In this document: positions 6,036-18,165 of the stretch, in pieces
Numbering within the stretch: position 1 is the stretch's first letter
Layout of the letters: each line of letters opens with the position of its first letter
From: a virus
DNA length: 42,198 nucleotides
Virus record (IMG/VR): IMGVR_UViG_3300045996_000343
Span: 1 to 42,198 of that record
Reading direction: 5' to 3' (one strand)
Notes under the pieces: model-generated
Databases searched by the model: none
Seen by the model: only the letters and a program-made list of their open reading frames with translations
What the model was told of the DNA's origin: nothing
Program-made: the position numbers and the translations under genes

Positions 6036-6349
6036 TCCGCATTGCTCTTGTTTCTTTCGTCCTGGCTGGGTGCGCTGCCAGTCCGCAGCACATGGCCGCA
6101 CAGTCGAACTTCGATGTGTGCCGGTTCTCCATGGGCGGTCCACATGCCGCTGTAGCCGACGCAGAGGCCCGCGCTAGGGGGTTGGACTGCACGCCCTACT
6201 ACCCAGCCATCAACCAGCGCCAGGCGAACCAGAACGCGGCTACGCAGAACTTCATCCGGTCTATGCAGCAACCGGCCCCAGCCATGCGCCCTCCGGTCAA
6301 CTGCACCAGCTACCGCATAGGCAACACCGTACAGACGCAGTGCAACTGA
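6032..6349 (+). CDS. Lipoprotein coupled to the repressor (lysogenic conversion candidate)
   Basis: 105 residues. Signal peptide MIRIALVSFVLAGCAAS with lipobox LAGC (Cys 14), so it should be lipidated and placed in the envelope. The mature part has several Cys and a Gln/Asn-rich middle (NQRQANQNAATQNF). Its ATG overlaps the repressor stop by 4 bases (ATGA), so it should be made in the lysogen. That placement suggests surface alteration or superinfection exclusion; this is inference. Confidence 0.78.
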   Translation: MIRIALVSFVLAGCAASPQHMAAQSNFDVCRFSMGGPHAAVADAEARARGLDCTPYYPAINQRQANQNAATQNFIRSMQQPAPAMRPPVNCTSYRIGNTVQTQCN

Positions 6350-6640
6350 TTAGACGGTAGCTGTTGTGGGGCGGAACACGGCCCCCATGATGGTTGACTG
6401 GCCGACCGGGATGGTTCTGATCCCGTAGACTAGGTAATCCAGCGACACCCCCAGCAGCGGGCCGAGTGCATACCACTCGTCAGCCTTCGGCATGGACTTG
6501 CCGCGCTCCCAAGAGGACACCGTTTGCGCCTTCAGCTCCAGGTGCACAGCAATCTCTTCTTGCGTGAACCCGCTAGCAAGGCGTGACTCCTTCAGCCGCA
6601 GCCCTATGGCCTTGCGCCTATCTTCCCTGGCTTTTTTCAT
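6350..6640 (-). CDS. XRE-family HTH regulator
   Basis: 96 residues from ATG 6640, preceded by GAGG; a longer in-frame start to 6694 has no support. Classic XRE domain: IGLRLKESRLASGFTQEEIA, LKAQTVSSWERGKSMP, LGPLLGVSLDYLVYG. Convergent with and abutting the lipoprotein gene. It faces away from the 6.9-kb promoter that drives the accessory operon. Either a second repressor or the main repressor; the two cannot be separated without experiment. Confidence 0.82.
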   Translation of the reverse strand: MKKAREDRRKAIGLRLKESRLASGFTQEEIAVHLELKAQTVSSWERGKSMPKADEWYALGPLLGVSLDYLVYGIRTIPVGQSTIMGAVFRPTTATV

Positions 6641-6991
6641 TGGTAACCTCGTGACAACTACTGTACTCCTGTACAGCCAAATCCGGTAGTTCACTGGAAT
6701 CCTACGCGACCTCGCGGCATCGTCCTACATACCCGAATCATCCGCTGGTGTATCTGCGCGCAGATTTGAGACGGCTCAGCCCGTCGTTCTCCACCCTATA
6801 CCAAACGGTCCACTGAGCAGATTTGGGGACTGTCAGTTCTCCTAATACGGATGTACTAGCGTCCCACTACGCCGTTCATCCACTGGTGCACAAATTTGCG
6901 TTTGACCTACCGAATACGGTTGACACGCGCTCCGAATTCGGTAGACTGCGTTCTATCGGCTCTAACGAGCCAAACACTGGAGAGAAGCGAG
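6641..6991. promoter_or_regulatory. Control region between XRE gene and rightward operon
   Basis: 351 bp without a gene. It contains a TACTGTACTCCTGTACAG-type inverted repeat just upstream of the XRE gene (about 6658-6676), a half site CCGGTAG near 6683, several CxAATxCGG-like elements (near 6733 and 6843), and the operator-covered promoter at 6906-6947. The rest shows nothing I can assign. Confidence 0.6.
6906..6947 (+). promoter_or_regulatory. Rightward operon promoter with two operators
   Basis: TTGACA (6920-6925), 16-nt spacer, TAGACT (6942-6947). An operator CCTACCG-AATA-CGGTTGA (6906-6923) overlaps the -35 and a second, CGCTCCG-AATT-CGGTAGA (6928-6945), fills the spacer and -10. Both match the palindrome at 5628-5645, so the same repressor probably silences both outward promoters. 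Confidence 0.78.
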
Positions 6992-7261
6992 ATGAGCGAA
7001 CAGCGCGTCTACAAAGTGCCAGCCCTGTTCTGGCTCGATCACGAGGATCGCAGCCCGTGTGACCGCCCCGAGCAGATGGCGGAGCTGCAAAGCATCCAGG
7101 GTCGCGTGGCTTACATCATGGCGAACGCGGAGCAGTTGGAGTGCCTGCGCAGCGATGCCGAGTTCTATGCGGGGGACAACGTGGATGACTGCAAGAGCAT
7201 TCAGCGCAGCGCAAGGGCCACGCTGGAAGCGCTTGCAAAAGCCAAGAACGAAACGCGATGA
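6992..7261 (+). CDS. First gene of the rightward accessory operon
   Basis: 89 residues (MSEQRVYKVPALFWLDHEDR). Start preceded by GGAGAGAAGCGAG. Mostly helical, acidic, with an ARATLEALAKAKNETR end. No signal, membrane segment or metal motif. It is the first product from the repressor-controlled promoter at 6920, so it would be made immediately on infection or induction. No family recognised. Confidence 0.72.
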   Translation: MSEQRVYKVPALFWLDHEDRSPCDRPEQMAELQSIQGRVAYIMANAEQLECLRSDAEFYAGDNVDDCKSIQRSARATLEALAKAKNETR

Positions 7262-7446
7262 ACAAGCCGACCCCGTTGACCCCATCCCAGCGGTCTGCCT
7301 TGGAATTGTTAGCGCGTGGGCGCAGCCTCCGTGGCCTCGCGCATGGAGTGACGATTAACCACCTGAAGATGAAGCGGTTAATCGAGGACAGCGACACGAT
7401 CACCGAAGCGGGACGCGCTGCCATCGCCAAGGCTACGGGAGCCTGA
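7258..7446 (+). CDS. Small HTH-like protein
   Basis: 62 residues (MNKPTPLTPSQRSALELLAR...), start overlapping the previous stop as ATGA. The sequence LTPSQRSALELLARGRSLRG and ITEAGRAAIAKATG resembles a compact winged-helix type domain found in many small phage proteins. Could bind DNA; target unknown. Confidence 0.66.
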   Translation: MNKPTPLTPSQRSALELLARGRSLRGLAHGVTINHLKMKRLIEDSDTITEAGRAAIAKATGA

Positions 7447-7447
7447 C

Positions 7448-8146
7448 ATGGCCTACCAACCCCACCCTACTGGAGATGAGATGACCAACAGCGGCTCCAA
7501 GCGCAAGCCCTGTCAGCCAGTGGTGGCCGGGGAGCGTTTCGGTCGGCTGGTTGCGGTGCGGCTCGTCTCCAGCACCGGGCCCGCCAAGTGGGATGTGCTT
7601 TGCGACTGCGGGGCATCGAAGACTATTGCTGCTCGGTCGCTCAGAAAAGGTAGCAGCCGTAGCTGCGGTTGCCTACAGCGAGAGCTGATGGCGGCGCGGA
7701 ATGCAACGCATGGCCGCACCTACACGTCGATGTACACCCTGTGGGGCAGCATGTTCAACCGCTGCTGCCGGCCCACCCATGAGAGCTACCCGGCCTACGG
7801 CGGGCGTGGCATCAAGATTTGCGAGCGCTGGAAGTCTTTCGAGAACTTCCTGGCCGACATGGGTGAGCGCCCGACTCCACAGCACTCCCTTGACCGCATC
7901 GACGTAGACGGTGACTACGAACCCGGGAACGTCAGGTGGGCGACCCAGAAGGAGCAGTGCAGGAACAAGCGGACGAACCGTCTGATTGAGATCGACGGGG
8001 TGAGTCGCTGTGTATCGGAGTGGTGCGAGATCTTCGGCACCCCCGTGAGGCGAGCGTTCGGCCGTCTCCAAACAGGCTGGAATCCGATCGACGCTGTGCG
8101 GATGGCAAAGCAGCCCAGCCTGCGCCGCCACTACGGCCCCAGATAA
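7448..8146 (+). CDS. HNH-type homing endonuclease-like protein
   Basis: 232 residues (199 if ATG 7481, which has GGAG upstream, is used). Order: GERFGRLVAVR strand region, CDCG...SCGCL Cys cluster, then HGRTYTSMYTLWGSMFNRC, YGGRGIKICERW, SLDRIDVDGDYEPGNVRWAT and a C-terminal region with VSEWCEIFGTP that looks like a DNA-binding repeat. This is a widespread family of free-standing phage HNH-like nucleases. It may be a selfish insertion rather than a phage function. Active-site assignment is by family pattern. Confidence 0.8.
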   Translation: MAYQPHPTGDEMTNSGSKRKPCQPVVAGERFGRLVAVRLVSSTGPAKWDVLCDCGASKTIAARSLRKGSSRSCGCLQRELMAARNATHGRTYTSMYTLWGSMFNRCCRPTHESYPAYGGRGIKICERWKSFENFLADMGERPTPQHSLDRIDVDGDYEPGNVRWATQKEQCRNKRTNRLIEIDGVSRCVSEWCEIFGTPVRRAFGRLQTGWNPIDAVRMAKQPSLRRHYGPR

Positions 8147-8164
8147 GAAACAAAGAGGATTCCC

Positions 8165-8326
8165 ATGCAAACCATCCTCCGCGACCAGCGCATCCCTGAT
8201 TGCCTCGGAGCGCAAAAAGACAGTTCGGTCAATTTGACCGTTCCCACCGATAGGCCGGAGAGTCGCGCATCGACCGCTGGCGTGCGGGTGCTGGGCGAAG
8301 CCAACAAGGAGCCGAAGCATGGATGA
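8165..8326 (+). CDS. Small protein containing a repeat copy
   Basis: 53 residues (MQTILRDQRIPDCLGAQKDS...), start preceded by AAAGAGGATTCCC. Residues 23-36 (NLTVPTDRPESRAS) come from repeat R9. Overlaps the next gene by 8 bases. Basic tail. Low complexity and no recognised domain, so it may be a minor or non-functional product. Confidence 0.5.
   Translation: MQTILRDQRIPDCLGAQKDSSVNLTVPTDRPESRASTAGVRVLGEANKEPKHG
8231..8274 (+). repeat. Dispersed 44-bp repeat R9
   Basis: Left core TTTGACC, 16-nt spacing, right core GCCGGAGAGTC then GCGCATCG. The most diverged copy on the left side; its right end matches R4. Confidence 0.65.
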
Positions 8327-8633
8327 GCCGATCTACACCGAAAAGCAGATGCAGGAGCGGCTGGGGCTGGCCCGTGCCGCCGCGCGTGAGAAGGCATGGC
8401 GCGACCTGATGCGCCGCTTCACCTATGCCCAGCGGAAGCACTTCGCGCACCTGCTGGCGCATGACTACACGATCACCGCCATCGAGTTCGAGGACGCCTA
8501 TGGGATGCGTCCCGACCGCATGGCGGGGGCCGTGAGCCGCGAGGACGCGAGCAAGTCGCTGGCCGAAGAACGTCAGCGGCGGTGGGCCGAGAAGCAGGAC
8601 GAGCCGCCGACGGCCGATGGAGGCCAGCAATGA
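8319..8633 (+). CDS. Accessory protein of unknown function
   Basis: 104 residues (MDEPIYTEKQMQERLGLARA...), highly helical and charged, Ala/Arg-rich (AAAREKAWRDLMRRFTYAQRKH). C-terminal tail acidic and Pro-rich. Overlaps its neighbours on both sides. No motif supports a function. Confidence 0.7.
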   Translation: MDEPIYTEKQMQERLGLARAAAREKAWRDLMRRFTYAQRKHFAHLLAHDYTITAIEFEDAYGMRPDRMAGAVSREDASKSLAEERQRRWAEKQDEPPTADGGQQ

Positions 8634-8941
8634 ACCTCGTCACCTTCCCTCCCCACTCCGACACCCTCGGAGCGCATGAGAACTACTCCGTACTGACAGA
8701 CCAGGCAGACGAAGCCGACATCCGCCGCCGCGCCGAAGAAGACGCAGGCGTCAGGACTCGGCCAGCTCGCAAGGAGATTGCCGCTCTGGCAACGAACCTC
8801 ACCGAGCAAGAGGTGTGCGCCCTGATTTCCTCTGTGATCGGGGTCATCAACAAGTGCGGCTGGAACCATACATCCGAAGCGGTTACGGCTATGGAGTACC
8901 TGCTGGACGCGCATACCACCCTTGAAAGGGCATCGCTGTGA
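8630..8941 (+). CDS. Accessory protein of unknown function
   Basis: 103 residues from ATG 8630, overlapping the previous stop as ATGA (an upstream in-frame ATG at 8582 would lie inside the previous gene). Helical: DEADIRRRAEEDAGVR, then LTEQEVCALISSVIGVINKC, then SEAVTAMEYLLDAH. It resembles small phage helical bundle proteins; function unknown. Confidence 0.7.
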   Translation: MNLVTFPPHSDTLGAHENYSVLTDQADEADIRRRAEEDAGVRTRPARKEIAALATNLTEQEVCALISSVIGVINKCGWNHTSEAVTAMEYLLDAHTTLERASL

Positions 8942-9075
8942 ACTGCTGCACCAACGAATGCCGGGAGGGCCGGGATTGCCCTTACCGCACCACCTGGAAC
9001 GGACCTGCCCTGCTGTGGGGTGCCGTCTTCAGCTTGGCTTGCTGGTCTGCCCTTGCTCTGGTGTTGCTGTCGTGA
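8938..9075 (+). CDS. Small Cys-rich membrane protein
   Basis: 45 residues from GTG 8938, GTGA overlap with the previous gene. N-terminal Cys cluster (NCCTNECREGRDCPYR) followed by one transmembrane segment (about residues 22-44, ALLWGAVFSLACWSALALVLL). Small phage proteins with an N-terminal xCREGRDCPxR motif and one membrane segment recur in phages of proteobacteria. Function unknown. Confidence 0.72.
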   Translation: MNCCTNECREGRDCPYRTTWNGPALLWGAVFSLACWSALALVLLS

Positions 9076-9209
9076 ATCGCGCCCTCTTTCCTTTGGTCCG
9101 ACTGTGGAAGCTGTCCATCTATCGGTGGGCGCTCAAGGAAATCCACCCTATGCACCCGGATGTGCCCTACCTCGTCATGGAACTTCACCGCTGGGAGAAC
9201 ACGAAATGA
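9072..9209 (+). CDS. Small protein of unknown function
   Basis: 45 residues from GTG 9072, overlapping GTGA upstream and ATGA downstream. Contains LVRLWKLSIYRWALKEIHPMHPD, an amphipathic basic/aromatic helix. The chain of 4-base overlaps supports it as a real gene. No family recognised. Confidence 0.62.
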   Translation: MNRALFPLVRLWKLSIYRWALKEIHPMHPDVPYLVMELHRWENTK

Positions 9210-9508
9210 ACGACCTGCATTCGGCAATCATGAATCTGCGCCACAAGGCTCACGACGACTGCATGACGCCGACCGAACGCATGGGCTATGCCGCCGGACA
9301 CCGTGACGCTCGCCACGCTGCTGCTGAACTGGCGTCCGAATCTGTCTCCACTCTCCAAGCACGTATCACCGAACTGGAAGAAGCACTGAGAGAGGCGGTC
9401 AGGCTTTACGCGAACTACGGCCTTGTCGCTGGAGCGATCGATGGCGAGCCGATGGCAGCTGGCAAGTGGATCAACGCTGCCCGCGCCGCACTGAAGGAGC
9501 CGAAATGA
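9206..9508 (+). CDS. Helical accessory protein
   Basis: 100 residues (MNDLHSAIMNLRHKAHDDCM...). PTERMGYAAGHRDARHAAAELA then a coiled-coil segment (SVSTLQARITELEEALREAV) and a short C-terminal domain. This arrangement is common among phage accessory proteins of unknown function. ATGA overlap on both sides. Confidence 0.72.
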   Translation: MNDLHSAIMNLRHKAHDDCMTPTERMGYAAGHRDARHAAAELASESVSTLQARITELEEALREAVRLYANYGLVAGAIDGEPMAAGKWINAARAALKEPK

Positions 9509-9699
9509 ACGACGAATTCGTAGATCGCGGTCCATTGACCCACCCCGTGGAGTTGTTCTGCAGTTCCTGCCGGGATGGAGTCTGCCCCGTGCCCTACTCA
9601 TGCGGAGTACCAGCCGAACAAACGAGGGGCATCAAGTCCCTGGCGGTTCTTACTGCTCTTCTTAGAACTACGAAAGGCAAAGGCAATGAAGACCGTTAA
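9505..9699 (+). CDS. Small Cys-rich protein
   Basis: 64 residues (MNDEFVDRGPLTHPVELFCSS...). Cys at CSSCRDGVCPVPYSC could form a small zinc site. The tail (KSLAVLTALLRTTKGKG) is basic. Overlaps the next gene by 13 bases. Function unknown. Confidence 0.62.
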   Translation: MNDEFVDRGPLTHPVELFCSSCRDGVCPVPYSCGVPAEQTRGIKSLAVLTALLRTTKGKGNEDR

Positions 9700-10027
9700 T
9701 TCAGATTTGACCTCGGACTCCGTGACGGCGGAGAGTCTTGCAAAGAAGCCGGGTCGGCTGCGCTGGAAGAAGCATGAACGCGAAACCGGTCTGCGCGCTA
9801 TCGGAGCTGGCCCGCGTGGCAGCGATTACACGGACGGGGTTACGAAGTACGCCACGGTTTACGCCCACAGCCACCGTCATACGGGAAAGCGCGGGTGGTG
9901 GTGGACTGCGCGCGTTAACGGCGGGTTCATCAACCACTCCGACCTTGAGGGTCTTGACGAAGCCACCGCCAAGCAGCAAGCGCAGGAATACGTAAAGGCG
10001 CAGCTCGGCAAAGCCAGCCATGACTGA
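9687..10027 (+). CDS. Accessory protein with repeat-encoded N-terminus
   Basis: 113 residues from ATG 9687. Residues 6-21 (SDLTSDSVTAESLAKK) come from repeat R8. The rest, RLRWKKHERETGLRAIGAG through VTKYATVYAHSHR and RGWWWTARVNGGFINH, is a compact beta-rich domain with many aromatics; EATAKQQAQEYVKAQL is a terminal helix. The TAESL stretch is shared with the genes at 4061 and 15573, which are otherwise unrelated. Function unknown. Confidence 0.74.
9704..9747 (+). repeat. Dispersed 44-bp repeat R8
   Basis: TTTGACCTCGGACTCC, then GACGGCGGAGAGTCTTGC, with 16-nt core spacing. Lies within codons 6-20 of the gene starting at 9687. Confidence 0.88.
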
Positions 10028-10190
10028 AGACAAGCTGCTTGAGCTTTGCCGCGACATCGCTGGCGAACTGAAGGATGAGGACTACTTCAACCGCTGCCCG
10101 ATCTGCGAAGGGTTGGGCATCGTCAACGACCAAGCCGGAACCGCCGTCCAGTGTCCGGACTGCGAAGGCGACGGATTCACCGCTATCTAG
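10020..10190 (+). CDS. Small double zinc-knuckle protein
   Basis: 56 residues (MTEDKLLELCRDIAGELKDE...). Two CxxCxGxG units (CPICEGLG and CPDCEGDG) spaced about 20 residues apart give a DnaJ-type cysteine-rich zinc module. A helical N-terminus precedes it. It may bind nucleic acid or a protein partner; nothing more is visible. Confidence 0.72.
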   Translation: MTEDKLLELCRDIAGELKDEDYFNRCPICEGLGIVNDQAGTAVQCPDCEGDGFTAI

Positions 10191-10198
10191 GAACGACC

Positions 10199-10735
10199 AT
10201 GAGCGAACGCGCGCTGGCTGAATGCTTTGGAGGCGAGTGGAAGCCGCACCCTGCGAACCATTCGTATTTCTTTTCAAGAGAAGGGAATGCCGCAAGCATC
10301 ACCGAGCGTGGAGGCAAGACCTACGTGAAGCTCCTGAAGGGTTGCAGATCGGGGCAGCAAGGATACCGAGCCATTTCGCACCCAATCGGCGGCGGTCGGT
10401 ATGGGCGCATCTACATCCATCGCGCTGTGTGCGAACTGTTCGTAGGCGAACCGCCGTCTGCCGGGTTGGTCGTGCGTCACCTTGACTGCAACAAAGACAA
10501 CAACAGGGCGAGCAACTTAGCCTGGGGAACCCACGCAGAAAACGCTCTGGACGGCGTGCGCAATGGTCGGATACGCAAGGGGCCAGATAGCCCTAACACC
10601 AGCGTCTCCCCGAATGAGGCTCTGAGCATGCGGCTGATGCGCAATAACGGATACACGTACAGAGAAATCGGCGAGGCATTCGGCGTTTCTCGCATGACGG
10701 CCACTCGCATAGTCAACCACAAGGAATGGGTATGA
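10199..10735 (+). CDS. HNH homing endonuclease with C-terminal HTH
   Basis: 178 residues. GRIYIHRAVCELFVGEPP, VVRHLDCNKDNNRASNLAWGT and HAEN are the HNH_3-type nuclease core; the C-terminal part (SPNEALSMRLMRNNGYTYREIGEAFGVSR, MTATRIVNH) is a helix-turn-helix. This is the typical architecture of phage free-standing homing endonucleases. Sits directly before the recombination genes. Confidence 0.85.
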   Translation: MSERALAECFGGEWKPHPANHSYFFSREGNAASITERGGKTYVKLLKGCRSGQQGYRAISHPIGGGRYGRIYIHRAVCELFVGEPPSAGLVVRHLDCNKDNNRASNLAWGTHAENALDGVRNGRIRKGPDSPNTSVSPNEALSMRLMRNNGYTYREIGEAFGVSRMTATRIVNHKEWV

Positions 10736-11325
10736 GCGAACTTTTGAAGATCAACGTAAGTGGGCACATAGAGTCCAAAAACGGCCTGAGTTACCTCTCC
10801 TGGGCTTGGGCGTGGTCAACGGTCCTGACCATCGACCCCGACGCCGAATGGGAGGCGAGCGAGTACAAGGCCCCTGACGGCACTGACTGGCCCTGTATGT
10901 TCCTTCCCGATGGGTCGGCCATGGTCAAGGTGTCCGTCACCATCAAGGGCAAGTCCAAGCGCGCCCTGCTGCCGGTCATGGATCACCGGAACAAGGCCAT
11001 CAAGAACCCGGACGCCTTCGCGGTCAACACCGCCGTCCAGCGCTGTCTGGTCAAGGCGATTTCCATGCACGGGCTGGGCCTCTACATCTACGCCGGGGAA
11101 GACCTCCCGCCGATGGACACCGCAGCCCTGGACGAACTCCTGACTGACATCGTGGCCGCACATGAGGCCGGCAAGACGCTGGAAGCCGTGGCCCTGTGGT
11201 ACGGCAGCGAAACGATCCGCATGAGCAACGAAGCCCGCGAGTACGCATGGGGACAACTGCGGGAATGGAGCGCCATCCGCTCCGCGATTAAGCAAAACAA
11301 ACCTGAACTGAAGGAAGCAGCGTAA
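10732..11325 (+). CDS. Single-strand annealing protein (DUF1071 type)
   Basis: 197 residues from ATG 10732 with AAGGA upstream (an ATG 6 nt earlier is less well placed). The SYLSWAWAWSTVLTIDPDAEW opening, PCMFLPDGSAMVKVSVTIKGK, and NPDAFAVNTAVQRCLVKAISMHGLG are hallmarks of the DUF1071 family, placed with phage recombinases of the Sak/Rad52-like group. It should anneal complementary single strands for homologous recombination. Directly followed by an SSB-like gene. Confidence 0.82.
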   Translation: MSELLKINVSGHIESKNGLSYLSWAWAWSTVLTIDPDAEWEASEYKAPDGTDWPCMFLPDGSAMVKVSVTIKGKSKRALLPVMDHRNKAIKNPDAFAVNTAVQRCLVKAISMHGLGLYIYAGEDLPPMDTAALDELLTDIVAAHEAGKTLEAVALWYGSETIRMSNEAREYAWGQLREWSAIRSAIKQNKPELKEAA

Positions 11326-11663
11326 TGGAAGTCTCTATCAAGTGGTTCAATGACCAATTTAATGTGCTCCTGGCATCTAAGGCCGGGGCCGAGCCATTCC
11401 TAGAGATTAAGGGATGTAGGCTCGCAAGCGGCTCCAACGGGCCCTTCGTTGGCTGGCCTGCGACCAAGAACGCGTCCACCGGGAAGTGGTGGAACCACTG
11501 CTACGCATCCGAGAAGTTCAATGCCGTTGTTCTGGAGAAAGCCCAAGCCACCCAGCAACAGGCTCCGCGCGGCGGCGGAGGCGGCAGGCAGCGCCAGGAG
11601 GATGTGGACTCCGATATACCGTTTAGCGATCCGCTCAAGGGGAAGCTGTGGGCGATCCAGTAA
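11325..11663 (+). CDS. SSB/SpoVG-like single-strand DNA-binding partner
   Basis: 112 residues; ATG shares a base with the upstream TAA. Core FLEIKGCRLASGSNGPFVGW and STGKWWNHCYASEKF resembles the SpoVG-type beta fold. A Gly/Gln-rich linker (about residues 72-92) leads to DSDIPF at 95-100, like the acidic tail of bacterial SSB that recruits repair proteins, here followed by 12 extra residues. I infer an ssDNA-binding partner of the annealing protein. Confidence 0.65.
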   Translation: MEVSIKWFNDQFNVLLASKAGAEPFLEIKGCRLASGSNGPFVGWPATKNASTGKWWNHCYASEKFNAVVLEKAQATQQQAPRGGGGGRQRQEDVDSDIPFSDPLKGKLWAIQ

Positions 11664-12103
11664 AGCGCTGCTTCAAGTGCCTGTCTGAGAAGCCGTTGGC
11701 CGAGTTCTACCGGCACGCTCAGATGGGAGACGGGCATCTGAACAAGTGCAAAGAATGCACCAAGCTAGATGTCAGAAAGCACCGCCAGGAGCATTGGGAG
11801 CAGGTACGCGCCTACGACCGTATGCGCGCATCCCAGCCGCACAGGGTGGCGCTTCGGAATCGAGTGATCGCGGAGTACGAGGCCAGGTTTCCAAACCGTA
11901 AGAAGGCAAACACTGCTGTTGGCAACGCCATACGGGATGGGAAGCTGAAGAAGCAGCCCTGCTGGGTTTGCGGTGAGTCTGCCGTTGCCCACCACCCGGA
12001 CTACGACAGGCCGCTAGAAGTTGTGTGGCTATGCCAGCCGCACCACAAACAGACCCATGCGCTAGTGGCGAACGACGCGGACTATGAAAAGACCGCCTTC
12101 TAA
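11648..12103 (+). CDS. HNH-like nuclease with N-terminal zinc finger
   Basis: 151 residues from GTG 11648, overlapping the previous gene by 16 bases. N-terminal CFKCLSEKPLAEFYRH and CKECTKLD form a CxxC...CxxC finger; C-terminal CWVCGES, AHHPDYDRPLEVVWLC and HHKQTH make an HNH-type metal site. Phage proteins of this kind are common and are annotated as HNH nucleases or zinc-finger proteins. A copy of the 44-bp repeat spans its stop codon. Confidence 0.75.
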   Translation: MGDPVKRCFKCLSEKPLAEFYRHAQMGDGHLNKCKECTKLDVRKHRQEHWEQVRAYDRMRASQPHRVALRNRVIAEYEARFPNRKKANTAVGNAIRDGKLKKQPCWVCGESAVAHHPDYDRPLEVVWLCQPHHKQTHALVANDADYEKTAF

Positions 12104-12224
12104 GCCAGATTCTCCGCTGTCAGGAAAGGCGCTACCAAGTGAAAAAGATGGATTTTGGGGTTTGGAGGCTATGGTGAAAAGACTAGAGAACGATGGGGTG
12201 AAGGAGAACGGCAATGCTTGTTGA
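12084..12224 (+). CDS. Small protein with repeat-encoded N-terminus
   Basis: 46 residues (MKRPPSKPDSPLSGKALPSE...), start 20 bases before the end of the previous gene. Residues 6-20 are encoded by repeat R3 read in reverse (PDSPLSGKALPSEK). The rest (WGLEAMVKRLENDGVKENG) is a helix with charges. Overlaps the next gene by 11 bases. Moderate support only. Confidence 0.5.
   Translation: MKRPPSKPDSPLSGKALPSEKDGFWGLEAMVKRLENDGVKENGNAC
12098..12141 (-). repeat. Dispersed 44-bp repeat R3
   Basis: Read on the minus strand: CACTTGGTAGCGCC, then GACAGCGGAGAATCTGGC. Core spacing 16 nt. It spans the stop codon of the HNH-like gene (12103). Confidence 0.8.
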
Positions 12225-12372
12225 CCCAGACGGCCTTGCGCTGGTGTGCATCGCTTGCGGTGCAATCGGCTTTCTCATTGGGTGGGTGGGTGGCGTTGTC
12301 GAAGGAGCGCAGCGCGAACGTGCCCATGGCGCGTCTCCTCTCCCCGATGATTCAGGGGGAGAACAGCCATGA
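12214..12372 (+). CDS. Small membrane protein between two inverted repeats
   Basis: 52 residues (MLVDPDGLALVCIACGAIGF...). One transmembrane segment at about 8-30 rich in Gly (GAIGFLIGWVGGVV), then a hydrophilic tail (EGAQRERAHGASPLPDDSGG). RBS AAGGAGAACGGCA before ATG. Repeat R3 lies upstream and R4 directly at the stop, in opposite orientation, as for the membrane gene at 4067-4201. Function unknown. Confidence 0.74.
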   Translation: MLVDPDGLALVCIACGAIGFLIGWVGGVVEGAQRERAHGASPLPDDSGGEQP

Positions 12373-12422
12373 AGGCAGATTTGGGAGCGGCCATCTGCAC
12401 GGCGGAGAGTCACGCATCGTGA
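12369..12422 (+). CDS. 17-residue ORF encoded by repeat R4
   Basis: ATG overlaps the previous stop (ATGA) and the ORF ends in TGA overlapping a GTG start, giving MKADLGAAICTAESHAS. Nearly all of it is repeat sequence. It may only serve to carry ribosomes to the next gene. Confidence 0.4.
   Translation: MKADLGAAICTAESHAS
12378..12421 (+). repeat. Dispersed 44-bp repeat R4
   Basis: GATTTGGGAGCGG, then CACGGCGGAGAGTCACGCATCG; 16-nt core spacing. Its GGAG lies 11 nt before the GTG start at 12419 and could act as ribosome site. Confidence 0.85.
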
Positions 12423-12643
12423 CGGACGCCGAACTGCAGCGGAAGCTGGAGAAGCTCGTCGCGCTGGCGAATGAACTGGACGCCGAGGCGAAGGCGCGCT
12501 ACGGCCCGGAGGGCTTTCTGTTCTATGAAGCGGGTGGCAACTTCCACATCATGGATGGTGACAGCGCGGCATTCAATCGCCGCCAGCGGCACATCCGCGC
12601 AAGCTCCCACGCTCTATGCCACATGGGAGCAGGCGCATGGTGA
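12419..12643 (+). CDS. Accessory protein of unknown function
   Basis: 74 residues from GTG 12419, GTGA overlap with the mini-ORF. VTDAELQRKLEKLVALANELD is a helical N-terminus, then ARYGPEGFLFYEAGGNFHIMDGD, a small beta part, and RRQRHIRASSHALC. The upstream in-frame region is better explained by the membrane protein in another frame. Flanked by repeats R4 and R5 in opposite orientation. Confidence 0.66.
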   Translation: MTDAELQRKLEKLVALANELDAEAKARYGPEGFLFYEAGGNFHIMDGDSAAFNRRQRHIRASSHALCHMGAGAW

Positions 12644-12656
12644 ACGGAGCGTGACC

Positions 12657-12767
12657 ATGCAACAACCTATGCCAGATTCTCCGCTGTCACGAAGTCCGAG
12701 CCCAAATGAAAAAGCATCTCCCCTCCCCCTTCTGACTCCCAGAGTTATCTATATAGCCTATGAGTGA
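12657..12767 (+). CDS. Short ORF largely encoded by repeat R5
   Basis: 36 residues, N-terminal part MQQPMPDSPLSRSPSPNEK from the reversed repeat and a short hydrophobic tail (LLTPRVIYIAYE). RBS is poor (GGAGCGTGACC). Whether it is translated is doubtful; the shared DSPLS pattern with 12084 may just reflect the DNA repeat. Confidence 0.35.
   Translation: MQQPMPDSPLSRSPSPNEKASPLPLLTPRVIYIAYE
12666..12709 (-). repeat. Dispersed 44-bp repeat R5
   Basis: Minus-strand reading: CATTTGGGCTCGGACTTC, then GTGACAGCGGAGAATCTGGC. 16-nt core spacing. Same right-end variant as R3. Confidence 0.88.
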
Positions 12768-12784
12768 CAAACAGCCTTCAATTC

Positions 12785-12828
12785 AATGTGGGCTCGTCCT
12801 CCTTCCATTCGGAGAATCTAGCTATGAG
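12785..12828 (+). repeat. Dispersed 44-bp repeat R6
   Basis: TGTGGGCTCGTCC, then CATTCGGAGAATCTAGC. Core spacing 16 nt. Its GGAG sits 9 nt before the ATG at 12824 and is the only visible ribosome site for that gene. Confidence 0.8.
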
Positions 12829-13036
12829 CGCCCGTGACCGCGTAGACCTCAGTGAAATCTGGAGAGCTGAAATGCTGTCCGTCGAGGACATAGCAAAGAT
12901 GTGGAAAGTAGACCGCACCTACGCTCGGGACAAGCTTACAAAGAGCGAGGGCTTCCCCTCTCCTGCCCCTGGGTCTACTCGTAGGTTTCAGAGGTGGCTG
13001 CGTTCTCAAGTTGAGGCGTTTGCGAGAGGGGAATGA
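12824..13036 (+). CDS. AlpA/excisionase-like DNA-binding protein
   Basis: 70 residues from ATG 12824 (MSARDRVDLSEIWRAEM); GTG 12764 in frame would add repeat-encoded SSSFHSENLA. MLSVEDIAKMWKVDRTYARD, then GFPSPAPGSTRRFQRWLRSQVEAF is the winged-helix layout of AlpA/Xis-type proteins (helix, turn, FPxP, wing, W). Close to the integrase, so excisionase is a fair guess. Confidence 0.72.
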   Translation: MSARDRVDLSEIWRAEMLSVEDIAKMWKVDRTYARDKLTKSEGFPSPAPGSTRRFQRWLRSQVEAFARGE

Positions 13037-13043
13037 TTCTTTT

Positions 13044-13087
13044 TATCTGACCTCGGCTTTCCTGATGGCGGAGAATCTTGCCGAGGC
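13044..13087 (+). repeat. Dispersed 44-bp repeat R7
   Basis: TATCTGACCTCGGC, then GATGGCGGAGAATCTTGCCGAGGC; 16-nt core spacing. Located in the 5' leader of rtcB. CCTCGGC and GCCGAGG could pair across the copy. Confidence 0.88.
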
Positions 13088-13130
13088 CGCGCGAACAACG
13101 AAAGGACGATATGCGAGTAATCAAGGATGA
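13065..13130 (+). CDS. 21-residue upstream ORF overlapping rtcB start
   Basis: ATG 13065 lies inside repeat R7 and gives MAENLAEAARTTKGRYASNQG, ending at 13130, past the rtcB ATG at 13111. The first nine residues match the TAESLSEAA peptide of other repeat copies. No ribosome site is visible in front of it. It could regulate rtcB translation, or be an accident of the repeat. Confidence 0.35.
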   Translation: MAENLAEAARTTKGRYASNQG

Positions 13131-14316
13131 GGGTTCACTGCCGATCAAGGCGTGGACTGACGAAATCGAGGAATCCGCGATGGCCCAACTGCGGAACCTT
13201 GCCAAGATGCCCTTTATCGCCAAGAACGGCGTAGCCGTTATGCCGGACGTTCACGCCGGGATCGGTGCGACCGTAGGCAGCGTCATCGCCAGCCATAAGG
13301 CCATCATCCCGGCTGCGGTGGGCGTGGACATCGGCTGCGGCATGAACGCCGTGCGGCTGTCCCTCAAGGCGTCGGACCTCCCGGAATCGCTCAAGGCGAT
13401 GCGTGACCAGATCGAGCGGGATGTCCCTGTCGGCTTCTCCCAGCACCGCAAGGATGATGACATCGAGGCGAACTGGCGGGACGAGCTAGGAGAGCGCGGC
13501 GACCTGTGGAATAGCTGGACGGACCTGAACGCGAAGTTCCCAGCCCTCAAGACGAAGACCGAGAACGTCCTTGGGCAACTTGGCACCTTGGGCGGTGGCA
13601 ATCACTTCATCGAGGTTTGCTTGGACGAGAATCAGGATGTGTGGATCATGCTGCACTCCGGTTCGCGCGGGACCGGCAACGCCATCGGGCGCTACTTCAT
13701 CGAACTGGCGAAGGAGGCGTGCGAGAAGTGGCACATCAACCTGCCGGACAACGACCTCGCCTACTTCCCCGAGGGGACGACGCTGTTCGATGACTACACC
13801 ACCGCTGTTCATTGGGCGCAAGAGTACGCATTCCAGAACCGCGCGGTGATGCTGGAGCGAGTGATTGCCGCCGTCCGCAAGGCCATCGGGAAGCCCTTTG
13901 AAGTGACCTCGGAGGCGATCAACTGCCACCACAACTACGTGGAGCGGGAAAGCCACTTCGGGCAGAACCTGTGGGTGACGCGCAAGGGGGCTATCCGTGC
14001 CCGTGAGGGCGATCTAGGCATCATCCCCGGCAGCATGGGCCAGCGCAGCTACATCGTGCGCGGCAAGGGCAACCCGGAGTCCTACTGCTCTTGCAGCCAC
14101 GGCGCAGGCCGGGTGATGAGCCGCACGGAGGCAAAGCGCCGATTCTCACTGGCCGATCTTGTCGCCCAGACGGAGGGGGTGGAGTGCCGAAAGGACGAGG
14201 CGGTGATTGACGAAATCCCCGGAGCCTACAAGTCCATCGACGCCGTGATGGAGAACCAGCGCGATCTGGTGGAGGTCGTCCACACGCTAAAGCAGGTGCT
14301 GTGCGTTAAAGGTTGA
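13111..14316 (+). CDS. rtcB: RtcB-type RNA ligase (3'-phosphate/5'-OH)
   Basis: 401 residues from ATG 13111, with AAAGGACGAT upstream. All core motifs are present: PDVHAGIGATVGS (45-57), VDIGCG with metal Cys 76 (72-77), GGGNHFIEV (161-169), HSGSRG (182-187), NCHHNY (271-276), PGSMG (306-310) and SHGAGR with the guanylated His 330. RtcB seals 2',3'-cyclic phosphate and 5'-OH RNA ends, so it can repair tRNAs cut in the anticodon loop. A tRNA-Pro gene follows 6 nt after its stop. Length is close to E. coli RtcB (408). Confidence 0.95.
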   Translation: MRVIKDEGSLPIKAWTDEIEESAMAQLRNLAKMPFIAKNGVAVMPDVHAGIGATVGSVIASHKAIIPAAVGVDIGCGMNAVRLSLKASDLPESLKAMRDQIERDVPVGFSQHRKDDDIEANWRDELGERGDLWNSWTDLNAKFPALKTKTENVLGQLGTLGGGNHFIEVCLDENQDVWIMLHSGSRGTGNAIGRYFIELAKEACEKWHINLPDNDLAYFPEGTTLFDDYTTAVHWAQEYAFQNRAVMLERVIAAVRKAIGKPFEVTSEAINCHHNYVERESHFGQNLWVTRKGAIRAREGDLGIIPGSMGQRSYIVRGKGNPESYCSCSHGAGRVMSRTEAKRRFSLADLVAQTEGVECRKDEAVIDEIPGAYKSIDAVMENQRDLVEVVHTLKQVLCVKG

Positions 14317-14322
14317 GAGTTT

Positions 14323-14400
14323 CTGTGCGTAGCTCAGTCCGGTCAGAGTTCTCGGTTTGGAACCGAGGGGTCGCAGGTTCGAATCCTGCCGCACAGACCA
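14323..14400 (+). tRNA. tRNA-Pro (anticodon UGG), complete with CCA
   Basis: Perfect 7-bp acceptor stem CTGTGCG/CGCACAG, D arm GCTC..GAGT, anticodon stem CTCGG/CCGAG around TTTGGAA (anticodon TGG at 14358-14360), T arm GCAGG-TTCGAAT-CCTGC, discriminator A and encoded CCA (14398-14400). It starts 6 nt after rtcB and lies 185 nt before the integrase start. It can be a functional tRNA, the attP core (phages often integrate in tRNA 3' ends), or both. Confidence 0.95.
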
Positions 14401-14585
14401 GCTTCCCGCATTTTCCCCGCAATTTGCGGGCGATTTGCGGGGTAAGTACAGGTCCTCTCTCCGGCATTCCTATAGGGCGCGGTGTTTGTCAATACATCGC
14501 TTTCCCCTGTGATAGCCGTCAGCAACGGCATAGCCTTTCCCGCTCGCGTCCCGCAAACTTCCCGCACTCATGCGGGAGGATTCGG
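14401..14585. other. Putative attP arm region and integrase promoter
   Basis: 185 bp between the tRNA and integrase. It holds repeated TTCCCGCA/TGCGGGA words (14403, about 14549, 14558, 14570) and the inverted repeat CCCGCAATTTGCGGG near 14415-14430, as expected of integrase arm sites or IHF-linked attP architecture. A possible promoter is TTGTCA (14486-14491), 16 nt, TGTGAT (14508-14513). Roles are inferred. Confidence 0.6.
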
Positions 14586-15551
14586 ATGTACGTCAGACCA
14601 TACGGCAAGGGCCAGTTCAGGTGCGAGGTCGAGAAGCTAGGGGTTCGGGAGTCTCAGGTGTTCGACCGCAAGGGCGATGCCGTCAAGTGGGGCAACCAGC
14701 GGGAGCTTGAGATTGAGGCCGAGAAGACCGGACGAGGGGTGACGTTCGGCCAGGTTGCGGGACGGTATTTGCGGGAAGTGACGCCCGGCAAGAAGTCTGC
14801 CACGGACTTTGAAACCCGACGGATGGGCTACTTCAAGGCGTTTTTTGGGGAGTCCACCCCGATCCTGTCCATCACCCGGAAGACCATCGCCAAGTGGCGG
14901 GACCACCGGCTACAGACGGTCACCGGGTCTACCGTGAACCGGGAAGCCAACCTCCTGTCCAACCTGTTCCGTAAAGCCCGGATGGATTGGGAGTACATCC
15001 AAAGTAATCCCATGGAGGGGATTGACTGGCCGGACGAGGAAGACCCTCGCACTGTGGTTTGGAACTGGCGGCAGATCAGAAAGGTTCTGCGGTACTGCCA
15101 AAGCTCCCAAGGCATCAAAACCCAACAGTGCGGGATAGCCTTTCACATTGCCCTGCGGACAGCCATGAGGGCTAAGGAAGTGCTCCTGGCCACCAAGCGC
15201 GGGCAGCTCGCCGTGATAGACGACAGCAAGACGACCAAGAAGGGGAAGGAAATCACCATCCCACTGACCCACCAGGGACGCAGGGTCATGGAGCGGTACG
15301 CCGGTACGCCGTGGCAGATCGAGGCCAACGAGCTGTCCGTGCTGTTCCACAAGGCTTGTCTCCAGTGCGGAGTCAGGCAGAAGCACGTAGACGGACCCAC
15401 GTATCACGACTCACGCGGGACGGCGCTGACCCTGCTTGCTCGGAAGATGCCGGTGGAGAAGTTGCAGCGGATCAGTCGGCATCGGAACATCAATACGCTA
15501 ATCCGCGTGTACTACCGCGCGACCAATGAGCAGATTGCAGCGAGCCTGTAG
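14586..15551 (+). CDS. int: Tyrosine recombinase integrase
   Basis: 321 residues from ATG 14586 with GGAGGATTCGG upstream; a longer in-frame start would run through the tRNA. Arm-binding and core-binding regions precede the catalytic domain with R195 (TAMRAKEV), a Lys in SKTTKKGKEI (215-221), H274 and R277 (HDSRGTAL), H299 (SRHRNINT) and nucleophile Y309 or Y310. Together with the adjacent tRNA this is a standard tRNA-targeting integration module. Confidence 0.93.
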   Translation: MYVRPYGKGQFRCEVEKLGVRESQVFDRKGDAVKWGNQRELEIEAEKTGRGVTFGQVAGRYLREVTPGKKSATDFETRRMGYFKAFFGESTPILSITRKTIAKWRDHRLQTVTGSTVNREANLLSNLFRKARMDWEYIQSNPMEGIDWPDEEDPRTVVWNWRQIRKVLRYCQSSQGIKTQQCGIAFHIALRTAMRAKEVLLATKRGQLAVIDDSKTTKKGKEITIPLTHQGRRVMERYAGTPWQIEANELSVLFHKACLQCGVRQKHVDGPTYHDSRGTALTLLARKMPVEKLQRISRHRNINTLIRVYYRATNEQIAASL

Positions 15552-15572
15552 GCATCCTTAAAGGAGAAAGAG

Positions 15573-15809
15573 ATGGAAGACCAAAACCATAAGGCAGATG
15601 TGGCAGTGCCCACCGTGACGGCGGAGAGTCTTTCCGAGGCTGCGCAGACGTTCATCATCAGTGACCCGTTTTGCGCAACCAAGGGCGGTGACATCGTTGC
15701 GCGCGGCTTCAAGACTGCGGTCAACGCTCAGAAGTGGCTGGATAAGAAGATAGCAGCCGACCCCGATGGATACGCGGGCTGCTATGTCGAGCCCGACTAC
15801 CGCCGATAG
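15573..15809 (+). CDS. Accessory protein bracketed by inverted repeats
   Basis: 78 residues, strong RBS AAAGGAGAAAGAG. Residues 9-25 (DVAVPTVTAESLSEAAQ) come from repeat R10 and the stop lies in R11 in the opposite orientation. The remainder, IVARGFKTAVNAQKWLDKKIAADPDGYAGCYVE, is a compact alpha/beta domain common in small phage proteins. Function unknown. Confidence 0.72.
   Translation: MEDQNHKADVAVPTVTAESLSEAAQTFIISDPFCATKGGDIVARGFKTAVNAQKWLDKKIAADPDGYAGCYVEPDYRR
15597..15640 (+). repeat. Dispersed 44-bp repeat R10
   Basis: GATGTGGCAGTGCC, then GTGACGGCGGAGAGTCTTTCCGAGGC; 16-nt core spacing. Right end identical to R1 over more than 15 bases. Confidence 0.85.
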
Positions 15810-15843
15810 ATTCTCCGCCCGATCAAGCGGACGAGCCCAAGTG
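15800..15843 (-). repeat. Dispersed 44-bp repeat R11
   Basis: Minus-strand reading CACTTGGGCTCGTCCGC, then GGGCGGAGAATCTATCGG; 17-nt core spacing. Covers the stop of the gene at 15573-15809, opposite in orientation to R10. Confidence 0.82.
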
Positions 15844-15900
15844 AAAAGGAAGGCATCCCGGTATCCTGCCTTTACCGATATTGGCAGTACAACCATCCTT

Positions 15901-15920
15901 ACCGTTTAGCGGTAAACGGT
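15901..15920. promoter_or_regulatory. Perfect 20-bp palindrome before gene 15939
   Basis: ACCGTTTA-GCGG-TAAACGGT, an 8-bp inverted repeat with a 4-bp centre, 18 bp upstream of the start at 15939. The half site ACCGTTTA also occurs once in the immunity region at about 5691-5698. Could be an operator; on RNA it would form a stable hairpin before the ribosome site. Confidence 0.65.
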
Positions 15921-15938
15921 CAACCAATGGAGAGAGAG

Positions 15939-16169
15939 ATGGAACTACCTGAATTGCCCAATACAAAGCACGTAAGCACCTGGAAGGGTGAGCAAGACCG
16001 TTTCGACATCTACGGCTACACCGCCGATCAGATGCGAGCCTATGGAGAGCAGTGCATCCTGCTAGAGAGGGAGCGCGCGGCAAAGGTGGTGGAGGCCCTG
16101 GAAGGCGGCGGCGCTGGTGAACGATGGGCTGCGTGCAGGATTGCTGCCGAGGCCATCAGGAAAGGCTAG
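15939..16169 (+). CDS. Accessory protein of unknown function
   Basis: 76 residues from ATG 15939, preceded by GGAGAGAG (ATG 15927 has no site). Contains YGYTADQMRAYGEQCILLER and a helical C-terminus WAACRIAAEAIRKG, a pattern frequent in small phage accessory proteins. Convergent overlap of 4 bases with the membrane gene at 16166. Function unknown. Confidence 0.72.
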   Translation: MELPELPNTKHVSTWKGEQDRFDIYGYTADQMRAYGEQCILLERERAAKVVEALEGGGAGERWAACRIAAEAIRKG

Positions 16170-16309
16170 CGAGCCTGCATCCAGACGCCAGCTTGAGCAA
16201 CCGCATAGCCCACGAACATGATCCCCACTCCCATGTTCCCCTTGGCCCACTGCTCTACACCGATCCAGATGTAGGCGACTCCGATCAGGGCTATCAGGGT
16301 GTGGCTCAT
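16166..16309 (-). CDS. Small two-helix membrane protein
   Basis: 47 residues (MSHTLIALIGVAYIWIGVEQ...). Two hydrophobic segments, about 4-18 and 28-42, separated by a short polar turn (EQWAKGNMG). Ribosome site weak. Small proteins with the IGVAYIWIGVEQW pattern recur in phages. Could act on the membrane during infection; holin role is less likely because a holin sits in the lysis cassette. Confidence 0.7.
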   Translation of the reverse strand: MSHTLIALIGVAYIWIGVEQWAKGNMGVGIMFVGYAVAQAGVWMQAR

Positions 16310-16352
16310 AACGTATACCTACATGGAACGGGCGTTCTGTTCACTTTTACGC

Positions 16353-17327
16353 TCAAACGTCGATGACCTGGCCGCGAAACTCAATCCTGCCTTCAGAGTG
16401 AACCTTAACCACCTCGGGGAATAGCAGATGACCGTCAACGAACGTGAGAACGACGAAACCGCTACGCCAGTTCGTCGGGCCAGCTTCGAGGTAGTTCTCG
16501 AACTGCGGCCCCAGCGGGTCAGCGAGGGTGCCAGTGTCCACCCCGTACCGGGTTCCGTGATAGTCGTCAAATGGAGTGACCTTAAGACTATGCAGGTGCC
16601 CGGTCACGATGTTCACGCCGCTGTTCACCGTGTTGTTATGCGTAGCGTGGACGCCGCCCTTGTAGCGATGTTTGATGACCGTCCCTGGACCGTTCCAGAC
16701 CGCCCAACATGGGTGCCATGCGGGGAAGTGGTCCTTGAGGGAAAAACCTTTGACGTGTTCGTATTGGGGTGCGTTGGCAGCGAGCCGGTTTTCAAACCGC
16801 GCATCGTGGTTGCCCAAGCACCAGACGAGTCGCACGTTGTGCCGGGCTTTCTTCGCCGTTTCCTCAATCTCACCTAGAGCAGCGTCACAGGCTTTCAGTT
16901 CCTCAATGATCGAAGGCGTAGAGTCCCAGCCGATCCGGGGGAACCTGCTGATACTGGCCCCGTCGAAGGCATCCCCGTTGTTGATGACGGCTTGAGGCTT
17001 CAGGTGCTCGATGCACTTCAGCAGGCCAAGGAAAGCAGTAGTCCGAATGCCAGGCCAGAAGTGGGCGTCACTAAAGGCGATGATCGTGCCATTCAGGATG
17101 CCGAGGTCTAGTCTCTGGGGGTGCTTGTGGGCTGTGTGCCGGTGGGCATGGGCTGCGGCTTGGGGACTGTCGGCGGCTAGCTGGATGCCTAGCTTCAGCT
17201 CCAACCGCCTGCGCCTGTGATGAGCGTTGCGCTCACTCACCTTTAACACGCTAGCCACCTTGGCGGCTGACTTGTGGGTCTTCCAGAGTTCAACAAACTC
17301 CGCATCCGAGCATTTTGCGACGGCCAT
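16353..17327 (-). CDS. Metallophosphoesterase with N-terminal HTH
   Basis: 324 residues from ATG 17327, which overlaps the upstream stop (TAATG); a longer in-frame start is in the shadow of that gene. N-terminal helix-turn-helix (AAKVASVLKVSERNAHHRRR). Catalytic motifs of calcineurin-like phosphoesterases: DAHF (87-90), NGDAFD (117-122), GNHD (172-175), a His near 230 and GHLH (243-246). It could cleave nucleic-acid or cyclic-nucleotide phosphodiesters; substrate unknown. A nucleotide-signal or DNA-processing role is possible. Confidence 0.88.
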   Translation of the reverse strand: MAVAKCSDAEFVELWKTHKSAAKVASVLKVSERNAHHRRRRLELKLGIQLAADSPQAAAHAHRHTAHKHPQRLDLGILNGTIIAFSDAHFWPGIRTTAFLGLLKCIEHLKPQAVINNGDAFDGASISRFPRIGWDSTPSIIEELKACDAALGEIEETAKKARHNVRLVWCLGNHDARFENRLAANAPQYEHVKGFSLKDHFPAWHPCWAVWNGPGTVIKHRYKGGVHATHNNTVNSGVNIVTGHLHSLKVTPFDDYHGTRYGVDTGTLADPLGPQFENYLEAGPTNWRSGFVVLTFVDGHLLFPEVVKVHSEGRIEFRGQVIDV

Positions 17328-17596
17328 TATTGTTTCCCGAACTGCTCTAGGAACTGGTGCAGCAGATTCCCCTGCGCATCCACTTCCTTTTCGCAATGCT
17401 CGTCTTGCCCCGTGGTGAACCGGATGGCGTGTTGGAGTTCGTGGCAGAAGGTCGCGGCCTTGACCTGGGCCGACAGGTCGGAGCGGAGACGAATCTTGGC
17501 CGTCTCGTTGTCGCAGTGCCCCATGTCGGTGATAGCGTCGGATTCCTCCACCGTCCATCGGATACCGGCGAGGGTGAAGGTCTTTGGAATCTTCAT
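17327..17596 (-). CDS. HExxH zincin-like small metalloprotease
   Basis: 89 residues from ATG 17596 (MKIPKTFTLAGIRWTVEESD). HELQHAI at about 57-63 is the zinc site, with a downstream acidic Glu (CEKEVDAQ) as third ligand. This is the small phage metallopeptidase pattern, near SprT/ImmA-like folds. Overlaps the phosphoesterase gene. An ImmA-like role in repressor cleavage would be attractive but is unproven. Confidence 0.8.
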   Translation of the reverse strand: MKIPKTFTLAGIRWTVEESDAITDMGHCDNETAKIRLRSDLSAQVKAATFCHELQHAIRFTTGQDEHCEKEVDAQGNLLHQFLEQFGKQ

Positions 17597-17597
17597 G

Positions 17598-17909
17598 CTA
17601 AATAGTCGTCTCGCGAAACTTGGACAGCTCCAGCATCGCCCTAGAGCCATCCTCGAAAACGACCAGGACTAGTTCCTCATTGGAGGCGAAACAACCGTAG
17701 GCAACTATCGTCCCCTTGGTGTCCAGAATCCTCGCGTTTTGGAACCTGTCCCGGAACTCCTCCGGGATGTGGGACAGCGTTTCTGCATGGGTGCACATGG
17801 ATTCGTACAGCCTCAACTCCTGCGACCCGTCTGAGCTTTTCAGCATCAGTTCTGCATTGGCAGACACGGCAAAGCTGGCAGCTACTAGAGCCGCAATGAT
17901 TGAACGCAT
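17598..17909 (-). CDS. Secreted small protein
   Basis: 103 residues from ATG 17909 with GGAGG upstream. Signal peptide MRSIIAALVAASFAVSANA with likely cleavage after ANA. The mature part (ELMLKSSDGSQELRLYESMC...) is beta-rich with a Cys pair (CTHAET, YGCFASN). First gene of a minus-strand trio with the HExxH and phosphoesterase genes. A periplasmic role, possibly superinfection related, is inference. Confidence 0.75.
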   Translation of the reverse strand: MRSIIAALVAASFAVSANAELMLKSSDGSQELRLYESMCTHAETLSHIPEEFRDRFQNARILDTKGTIVAYGCFASNEELVLVVFEDGSRAMLELSKFRETTI

Positions 17910-17938
17910 GGGAAACCTCCAGAGGGGAGAGCTAGGGG

Positions 17939-17982
17939 AACTTGGCTTCGGACTACGTGACGGCGGAGAATCTCGGATCGGC
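17939..17982 (+). repeat. Dispersed 44-bp repeat R12
   Basis: AACTTGGCTTCGGACTAC, then GTGACGGCGGAGAATCTCGG; 16-nt core spacing. Sits between the divergent secreted-protein and HTH genes. Confidence 0.85.
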
Positions 17983-18021: not shown

Positions 18022-18165
18022 ATGACAGGACAGGTAAGCGGCAAGACAGAACGCGCCCTAAAACTGGTGCTCAAGGGCTGGACGGCCTATGCCGCAGCCA
18101 AGAAGGAGGGCATCGCCCTATCAACCATCTACCGCGCTATCAAGCGCGAGAAGGAGAAGAAATGA
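18022..18165 (+). CDS. Small HTH protein, probably leaderless and autoregulated
   Basis: 47 residues from ATG 18022 (MTGQVSGKTERALKLVLKGW); ATG 18004 and 17908 in frame lack good sites. AYAAAKKEGIALSTIYRAIKR is a resolvase/transposase-type helix-turn-helix. The promoter places the RNA start at this ATG, and a 20-bp palindrome covers the -35. Could repress the rightward genes or the minus-strand trio. Target not known. Confidence 0.68.
   Translation: MTGQVSGKTERALKLVLKGWTAYAAAKKEGIALSTIYRAIKREKEKK

Follow-up and report, generated by a model that had tools for sequence, protein, structure and literature searches.

Short repeats bracket small genes in alternating orientation between positions 12100 and 12716 of a phage contig of 42,198 nt, the whole of which was analysed and is hereafter called the window. 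Such an arrangement raises the question of whether single genes are moved, or turned around, by recombination at the copies, as the initial annotation proposed. In the reading that we favour, with a probability of roughly 60%, the repeats would be multi-copy boundary linkers of swappable early-gene slots, which take part in homologous exchange and also act as translation adaptors. The carriers are a hyper-mosaic group of probably temperate phages.

A profile search located 12 copies of a repeat of ~45–60 nt in the window (span 3,993–17,979). They sit at gene boundaries of the non-structural half, and none lies among the structural genes. The consensus in one orientation is about TTTTTCAYTTGGGCTCGTCC-N(~8)-TGACGGCGGAGARTCTTTC. 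Nine bases, CGGAGARTC, form a core that is invariant in every copy except for the variable R, and this 9-mer occurs 12 times in the window, each time within a copy (12/12), where simple arithmetic predicts ~0.6 occurrences. Against the 42-kb target, nhmmer gave E-values of 1e-10 to 1e-14 per copy with nothing else close, although these values are flattering because the profile was made from the same copies. Four relatives contribute a further 46 copies, and the core is kept in 58/58, at every codon position and in both orientations, and is almost absent elsewhere; as the core had served as seed for the search model, strongly degraded copies were perhaps missed and the invariance perhaps overstated. 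The repeat family is confirmed as real, far above chance. Isolated cores outside recognised copies, at L179 13481(-) and P5 3478(+), are possibly degenerate copies. The two ends of the window (1–123 and 42076–42198) are an identical 123-nt repeat, and the contig is therefore a circular or terminally redundant assembly.

Carriers were found by an exact 17-mer scan of viral contigs combined with a gapped pattern. They are G002 (37.6 kb), G003 (29.4 kb), G005, G011 and the more distant G004 (46 kb, 65.6% G+C). The IMG/VR records G005 and G011 share overlaps of 127 and 94 nt (100% identity) at their two ends and are pieces of one circular 42.4-kb phage, P5, which is colinear with the window; the comparison set consists of the window, G002, G003, G004 and P5. 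In G004, a largely unrelated phage, positions 26517–28323 hold several of the same linkers in succession (up to 100% identical over 44–47 nt), separated by other genes, which suggests transfer of slot arrays between phage groups. Outside the carriers, the relatives of the terminase large subunit (TerL) and of the single-strand annealing protein among viral contigs had no convincing copies, and the same was true of G012 (41 kb), the closest TerL relative for which most of the genome is available. The TerL of the window (36144–37424) is 79% identical to that of G012 but 32–33% to those of P5 and G003, which are otherwise colinear with the window; packaging genes are thus swapped as well. Among 50,697 records of known phages the consensus repeat had no real match (two hits at E=4 only), and the R3–R5 region had no match in plasmids. 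Bacterial and archaeal genomes (84,980 species) likewise gave no real match; two exact-pattern hits were judged to be chance because the profile gives E=0.9 for one and does not list the other at E<=10. A 175-aa protein encoded at 40789–41316 of the window is 97–98% identical in G003 and P5 and has no Pfam or PHROG match.

According to local transcription, the 58 copies divide into 36 START copies, whose inner side leads into a gene start, and 22 END copies, whose inner side leads to a gene end. The features of the window are as follows.

710–1027 (-): ninB, recombination mediator family (PF05772), with a repeat-free 5′ end
~3993–4052 (-): repeat copy R1, START type for gene 3831–4061(-); its leader MNTNSDHLGSSGSSGGTAESLSEAA is in frame with the gene; inner edge at 4001
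4067–4201 (-): small membrane-like gene, 44 aa, between END and START copies; 89–91% conserved in G003 and P5
~4212–4253 (+): repeat copy R2, END type for gene 4198–4515(-)
8223–8272 (+): repeat copy, START type, slot C; outer flank 93–98% conserved in P5 and G004, inner side unrelated
9697–9745 (+): repeat copy, START type, slot D, the recombination module
10732–11325 (+): Sak single-strand annealing protein (PF06378, E=2e-43), in slot D
12100–12151 (-): repeat copy R3, END type
12214–12372 (+): small membrane-like gene, 52 aa, between END and START copies
12372–12419 (+): repeat copy R4, START type, left side of slot E
12419–12643 (+): cassette gene of slot E, 74 aa, no family
12667–12716 (-): repeat copy R5, END type, right side of slot E
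12776–12822 (+): repeat copy, START type, slot F, the integrase module
13039–13085 (+): repeat copy, START type, upstream of RtcB
14586–15551 (+): tyrosine integrase (PF00589), in slot F
15573–15809 (+): cassette gene of slot G, whose first ~25 codons pass through R10
15588–15638 (+): repeat copy R10, START type, left side of slot G
15802–15852 (-): repeat copy R11, END type, right side of slot G
17940–17979 (+): repeat copy, START type, slot H; genes 18022–18407 are absent in P5

The succession R3(-), membrane gene 12214–12372, R4(+), gene 12419–12643 and R5(-) is as the initial annotation described it, and so is the mirror arrangement of R2, membrane gene 4067–4201 and R1 on the minus strand. 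Gene 15573–15809 had been placed between R10 and R11; R11 does begin at its stop codon, but the gene starts upstream of R10. Alternation of orientation is present but incomplete, with successive copies in the same direction at 8223(+) and 9697(+) and at 12776(+), 13039(+) and 15588(+). Slot F also holds an RtcB RNA ligase and a tRNA-Pro (TGG) gene (13111–14400), and relatives of this RtcB were not found in G002, G003 or P5. The integrase, of the phage-type tyrosine family, adjoins the tRNA-Pro. Three genes of HNH/endonuclease type lie in the early region of the window (7448–8146, 10199–10735 and 11648–12103), and the first has relatives located elsewhere in P5 and G003, a pattern typical of homing genes.

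Comparison of copies in the same slot across phages gave 37 pairs, in which the outer flank is conserved (77–100%) whereas the inner side is at background in 36. Ungapped identity drops to random within 10–15 nt of the edge, and the switch between conserved and replaced DNA lies at or just inside the core. The sole exception is a PAPS-reductase-like gene that occupies the same slot in G002 and P5. Slot E (R4–R5) holds the 74-aa gene in the window, the PAPS-reductase-like gene in G002 and P5, and a DNA methylase in G003. In slot D (9,697–12,108) the window has Sak, G002 has ERF, P5 has a YqaJ-domain gene and G003 has a Gp157-like gene, and from 12,776 slot F carries different integrases in the window, G002 and G003. 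With PADLOC, the PAPS-reductase-like genes gave matches of SspD/DndC/BrxP type; apart from these there was one marginal match to Cas8g and nothing else.

The same-slot pairs share exact linkers of 39–120 nt that reach beyond the repeat. At R4, exact identity with G002, G003 and P5 extends over 55–76 nt and ends exactly at CGGAGAGTC; the copy at 12776(+) lies in an exact linker of 81–120 nt common to the same three phages, with an unrelated inner side. The copy at 9697(+) falls within the N-terminal coding part of gene 9686–10027, and its outer flank is 97% identical to P5, again with the inner side unrelated. Only the first 23 residues of gene 15573–15809 are common to P5. When ends of homology blocks were counted, 17/109 fell no more than 10 nt away from one of the 12 inner edges, where rotation predicts 1.8 (p ~6e-4), an approximately nine-fold enrichment; block ends are also present elsewhere, the genomes being mosaic throughout.

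Some genes differ by presence or absence. The membrane gene 12214–12372 is replaced in G002 and P5, and only its last codons are left in G003, where hardly any sequence separates the counterparts of R3 and R4. The START copy of P5 at 18,395 joins directly to position 18396 of the window, skipping two window genes (17.97–18.4 kb), and this slot H junction between P5 and the window crosses a 10-nt direct repeat, AATCTCGGAT. As judged from the aligned genomes, genes have been replaced, and some gained or lost, at repeat copies between phages. The movement of genes suggested by the initial annotation is thereby upheld: the same genes are not carried between the same copies in all relatives. Short linkers of ~32–79 nt that are free of the repeat and 93–100% identical between phages occur at 6952–7000, 7414–7492 and 16303–16352 of the window. 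They also border unrelated genes, and exchange is therefore not limited to repeat copies.

The initial annotation had also asked whether the same small genes sit between copies elsewhere; the same cassette gene was not seen in two slots in the window and the compared relatives. Fragments of the repeat itself present a different picture. The same right half is combined with several left halves across copies, and a 21-nt piece of slot C is found in slot G of G003. The copies at 17940 of the window and 18395 of P5 share both flanks and differ in one decamer, and the P5 decamer matches that of the copy at 8915 of G002, which is of the other type. Repeat fragments therefore appear to be exchanged between slots.

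START and END copies are reverse complements of each other, yet they can be distinguished. START copies read CGGAGAGTC in 27/36 cases and END copies CGGAGAATC in 17/22 (p = 1e-4), and a T-tract precedes CAYTTGG in 17/22 END versus 4/36 START copies (p = 5e-7). Among START copies, 26/36 have an ATG or GTG in the leader frame with no stop codon between it and the edge; in the other two frames this holds for 7 and 5 copies. The leader starts 43–109 nt before the inner edge in most copies, Shine-Dalgarno sites are present at 27/36, and the predicted peptides resemble M...DHLGSSxLTAESLAEA. The leader continues into the gene in 21 copies and stops soon in 14, often overlapping the next start codon. 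At R4, the leader MKADLGAAICTAESHAS stops in GTGA, which starts gene 12419–12643. In the NinX-like gene of G002 the domain begins at residue 20, just after the leader (profile 2–114/114), and a PNKP phosphatase domain begins right after the leader, at residue 21 (profile 3–143/143). The 5′ end of ninB is free of the repeat in the window, whereas in G003 the ortholog carries a fused leader from a START copy, and the two proteins agree from about codon 3–5 of the window protein onward.

Of the END copies, 13/22 show a start codon in the last 9 nt ahead of the edge, and 10/22 have ATGA at the edge. Their mini-ORF (MKDSPPS..DEPK-like) stops at exactly +36 in 11/22. At R2, gene 4198–4515(-) ends in MKDSPPSDTTSPNKETV and a stop codon through the copy, followed by the Shine-Dalgarno sequence AAGGAG and the ATG of the membrane gene 4067–4201(-). 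The START frame has no third-position entropy peak indicative of codon-level selection on the leader, and a purely protein-level constraint on the leader is therefore not supported. A hairpin or attC-like structure at the copies was rejected, because RNAalifold of 20 copies gave 0 consensus pairs, and so was a promoter of sigma-70 type or a terminator, with no match above shuffles. A search for sites of sigma-70 type between 3.5 and 18.5 kb returned two (3.3 expected), neither of them in a copy.

The comparison shows that a cassette comprises a single gene or a few, headed at the 5′ end by a START copy and often closed at the 3′ end by an inverted END copy, and that the linkers stay in place while the cassettes are replaced between phages, the switch falling at or just inside the core. 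We propose that replacement occurs by homologous recombination during co-infection or with prophages. Single-strand-annealing proteins (Sak, ERF), together with NinB, may act on the linkers of 39–120 nt exact identity, with occasional short-tract conversion between copies in different slots. The copies would persist because they give an arriving gene a working translation start and stop. Candidate recombination proteins are Sak in the window, ERF in G002, the YqaJ domain in P5, and NinB, of which the window protein has 85–90% relatives in G002, G003 and P5. The reported pairing minimum of Red-beta is 23–27 nt, and phage recombinases of the Rad52-like type reportedly generate mosaics from homology that is short and diverged (PMC3945230). 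We infer homologous exchange because the linkers are longer than this minimum and the phages carry annealing proteins and NinB.

Several points weigh against this proposal. Homologous recombination leaves unexplained both why the END copy is an inverted START copy and why nine core bases (except R) are invariant while the rest varies. In addition, no cassette was seen in two slots and the cassette donors are unseen. It is because of the inverted symmetry and the invariant core that we retain, at a lower probability, an enzyme acting on CGGAGARTC. The copies would then be inverted recognition sites of a dedicated site-specific recombinase, transposase or homing endonuclease that exchanges cassettes. 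The constancy of the core at any codon position and in both orientations, the switch at this very place, the inverted copies at both cassette ends and the HNH and GIY-YIG genes in several slots are all compatible with such an enzyme, but we consider it unlikely: no enzyme gene is common to all carriers in the comparisons made, no inverted cassette was found, the copies are slot-specific and do not travel whole with the cassette, and the seeded search may have exaggerated the constancy of the core. A more specific version, in which the enzyme recognises inverted pairs of CGGAGARTC and replaces single genes in fixed slots, the site also being a translated socket on both strands, is rather doubtful.

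Purely regulatory or translational repeats, comparable to the start-associated sequences of mycobacteriophages, at which mosaic boundaries are incidental since boundaries favour gene edges anyway, would account for the conserved leader and mini-ORF frames and for the Shine-Dalgarno sites. We regard this as distinctly improbable, because translation does not need END to be the reverse complement of START, the exact linkers extend past the repeat, copy fragments are exchanged between slots, and the copies match sigma-70-type promoters and terminators no better than shuffles do.

An assembly artefact, in which co-occurring related phages were wrongly joined at shared linkers, deserves mention because most relatives come from one metagenome (3300045996), and all from very few, because exact shared stretches reach 120 nt, and because the two P5 contigs, G005 and G011, are broken inside such a linker. 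Branching at a linker, however, already requires real genomes with different adjoining genes, and most linkers differ by several percent between phages. Moreover, G001, a contig obtained independently from a different metagenome, shows the arrangement of G003 as a 99.94% copy of 12.9 kb (12,892 nt). We therefore consider an artefact very improbable. Least credible are invertible cassettes that flip genes on or off by recombination between the inverted copies flanking single genes: no reversed cassette was found, 54/54 copies with a called gene beside them have it in the direction of local transcription, and START and END copies stay distinct, a difference that frequent inversion would erase, so that this part of the initial annotation is not borne out. 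A transposon with terminal inverted repeats that moves as one unit does not fit, because, in the 37 same-slot pairs, the switch lies at the inner edge and the outer part stays with the slot.

The linkers can be compared with several known systems. Integron attC sites carry the boxes RYYYAAC (R″) and GTTRRRY (R′). The likeness lies in single-gene cassettes between imperfect repeats with a variable centre; unlike attC, the repeat here is without these boxes, its conserved parts being CAYTTGG and CGGAGARTC, is without a conserved hairpin and alternates in orientation. The start-associated sequences (SAS/ESAS) of cluster K mycobacteriophages (PMC3203893) likewise recur at gene starts in multiple copies, only in the non-structural half, and are common to unrelated genes. 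However, SAS lie 3–7 nt upstream of the start codon and nearly always in one orientation, whereas the present repeat occurs in both orientations, lies inside the ORF and, in inverted form, marks the ends of genes. For lambdoid phages, short conserved boundary sequences are discussed in PMC3029335; they share homologous recombination at short common sequences between modules, whereas in the present phages a single repeat family is found at roughly a dozen junctions of each genome, mostly as inverted pairs.

The promoter-early stem-loops (PeSL) of T4-like phages are mobile regulatory cassettes (Arbiol 2010 and Comeau 2014, as cited in PMC4503421). Insofar as that citing account describes them, they are alike in being repeated short motifs between early genes, with gene shuffling between related phages. 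They differ in that the repeats here match no sigma-70-type promoter or terminator, have no conserved hairpin, flank genes as inverted pairs and are themselves predicted to be translated. In the nin region of lambda and P22, ATGA overlaps link the genes to one another (Kroger and Hobom 1982, according to PMC8022706). To the extent of that description, the nin region resembles the present region in its chains of small genes with ATGA stop/start overlaps that vary between phages, and NinB in the window and the NinX-like gene in G002 are present here. The nin junction is ATGA, whereas here it is a repeat of 45–60 nt with an invariant 9-nt core. By analogy, the junctions appear to work like PeSL cassettes and nin genes, that is, as recombination-prone boundary sequences; what is new beside the nin genes is a long, repeated and inverted junction that is predicted to be translated.

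A common account of phage mosaicism is illegitimate joining with subsequent selection, because boundary sequences can seldom be seen (PMC3029335). In these phages the boundary is visible: one repeated sequence delimits about a dozen slots, and the points of exchange can be read almost to the base. The repeat also appears to settle a practical difficulty, namely how a gene that has just been acquired is to be translated. What boundary sequences and phage annealing recombinases contribute can thereby be tested directly, and the repeat junctions provide a sequence handle for finding new accessory genes.
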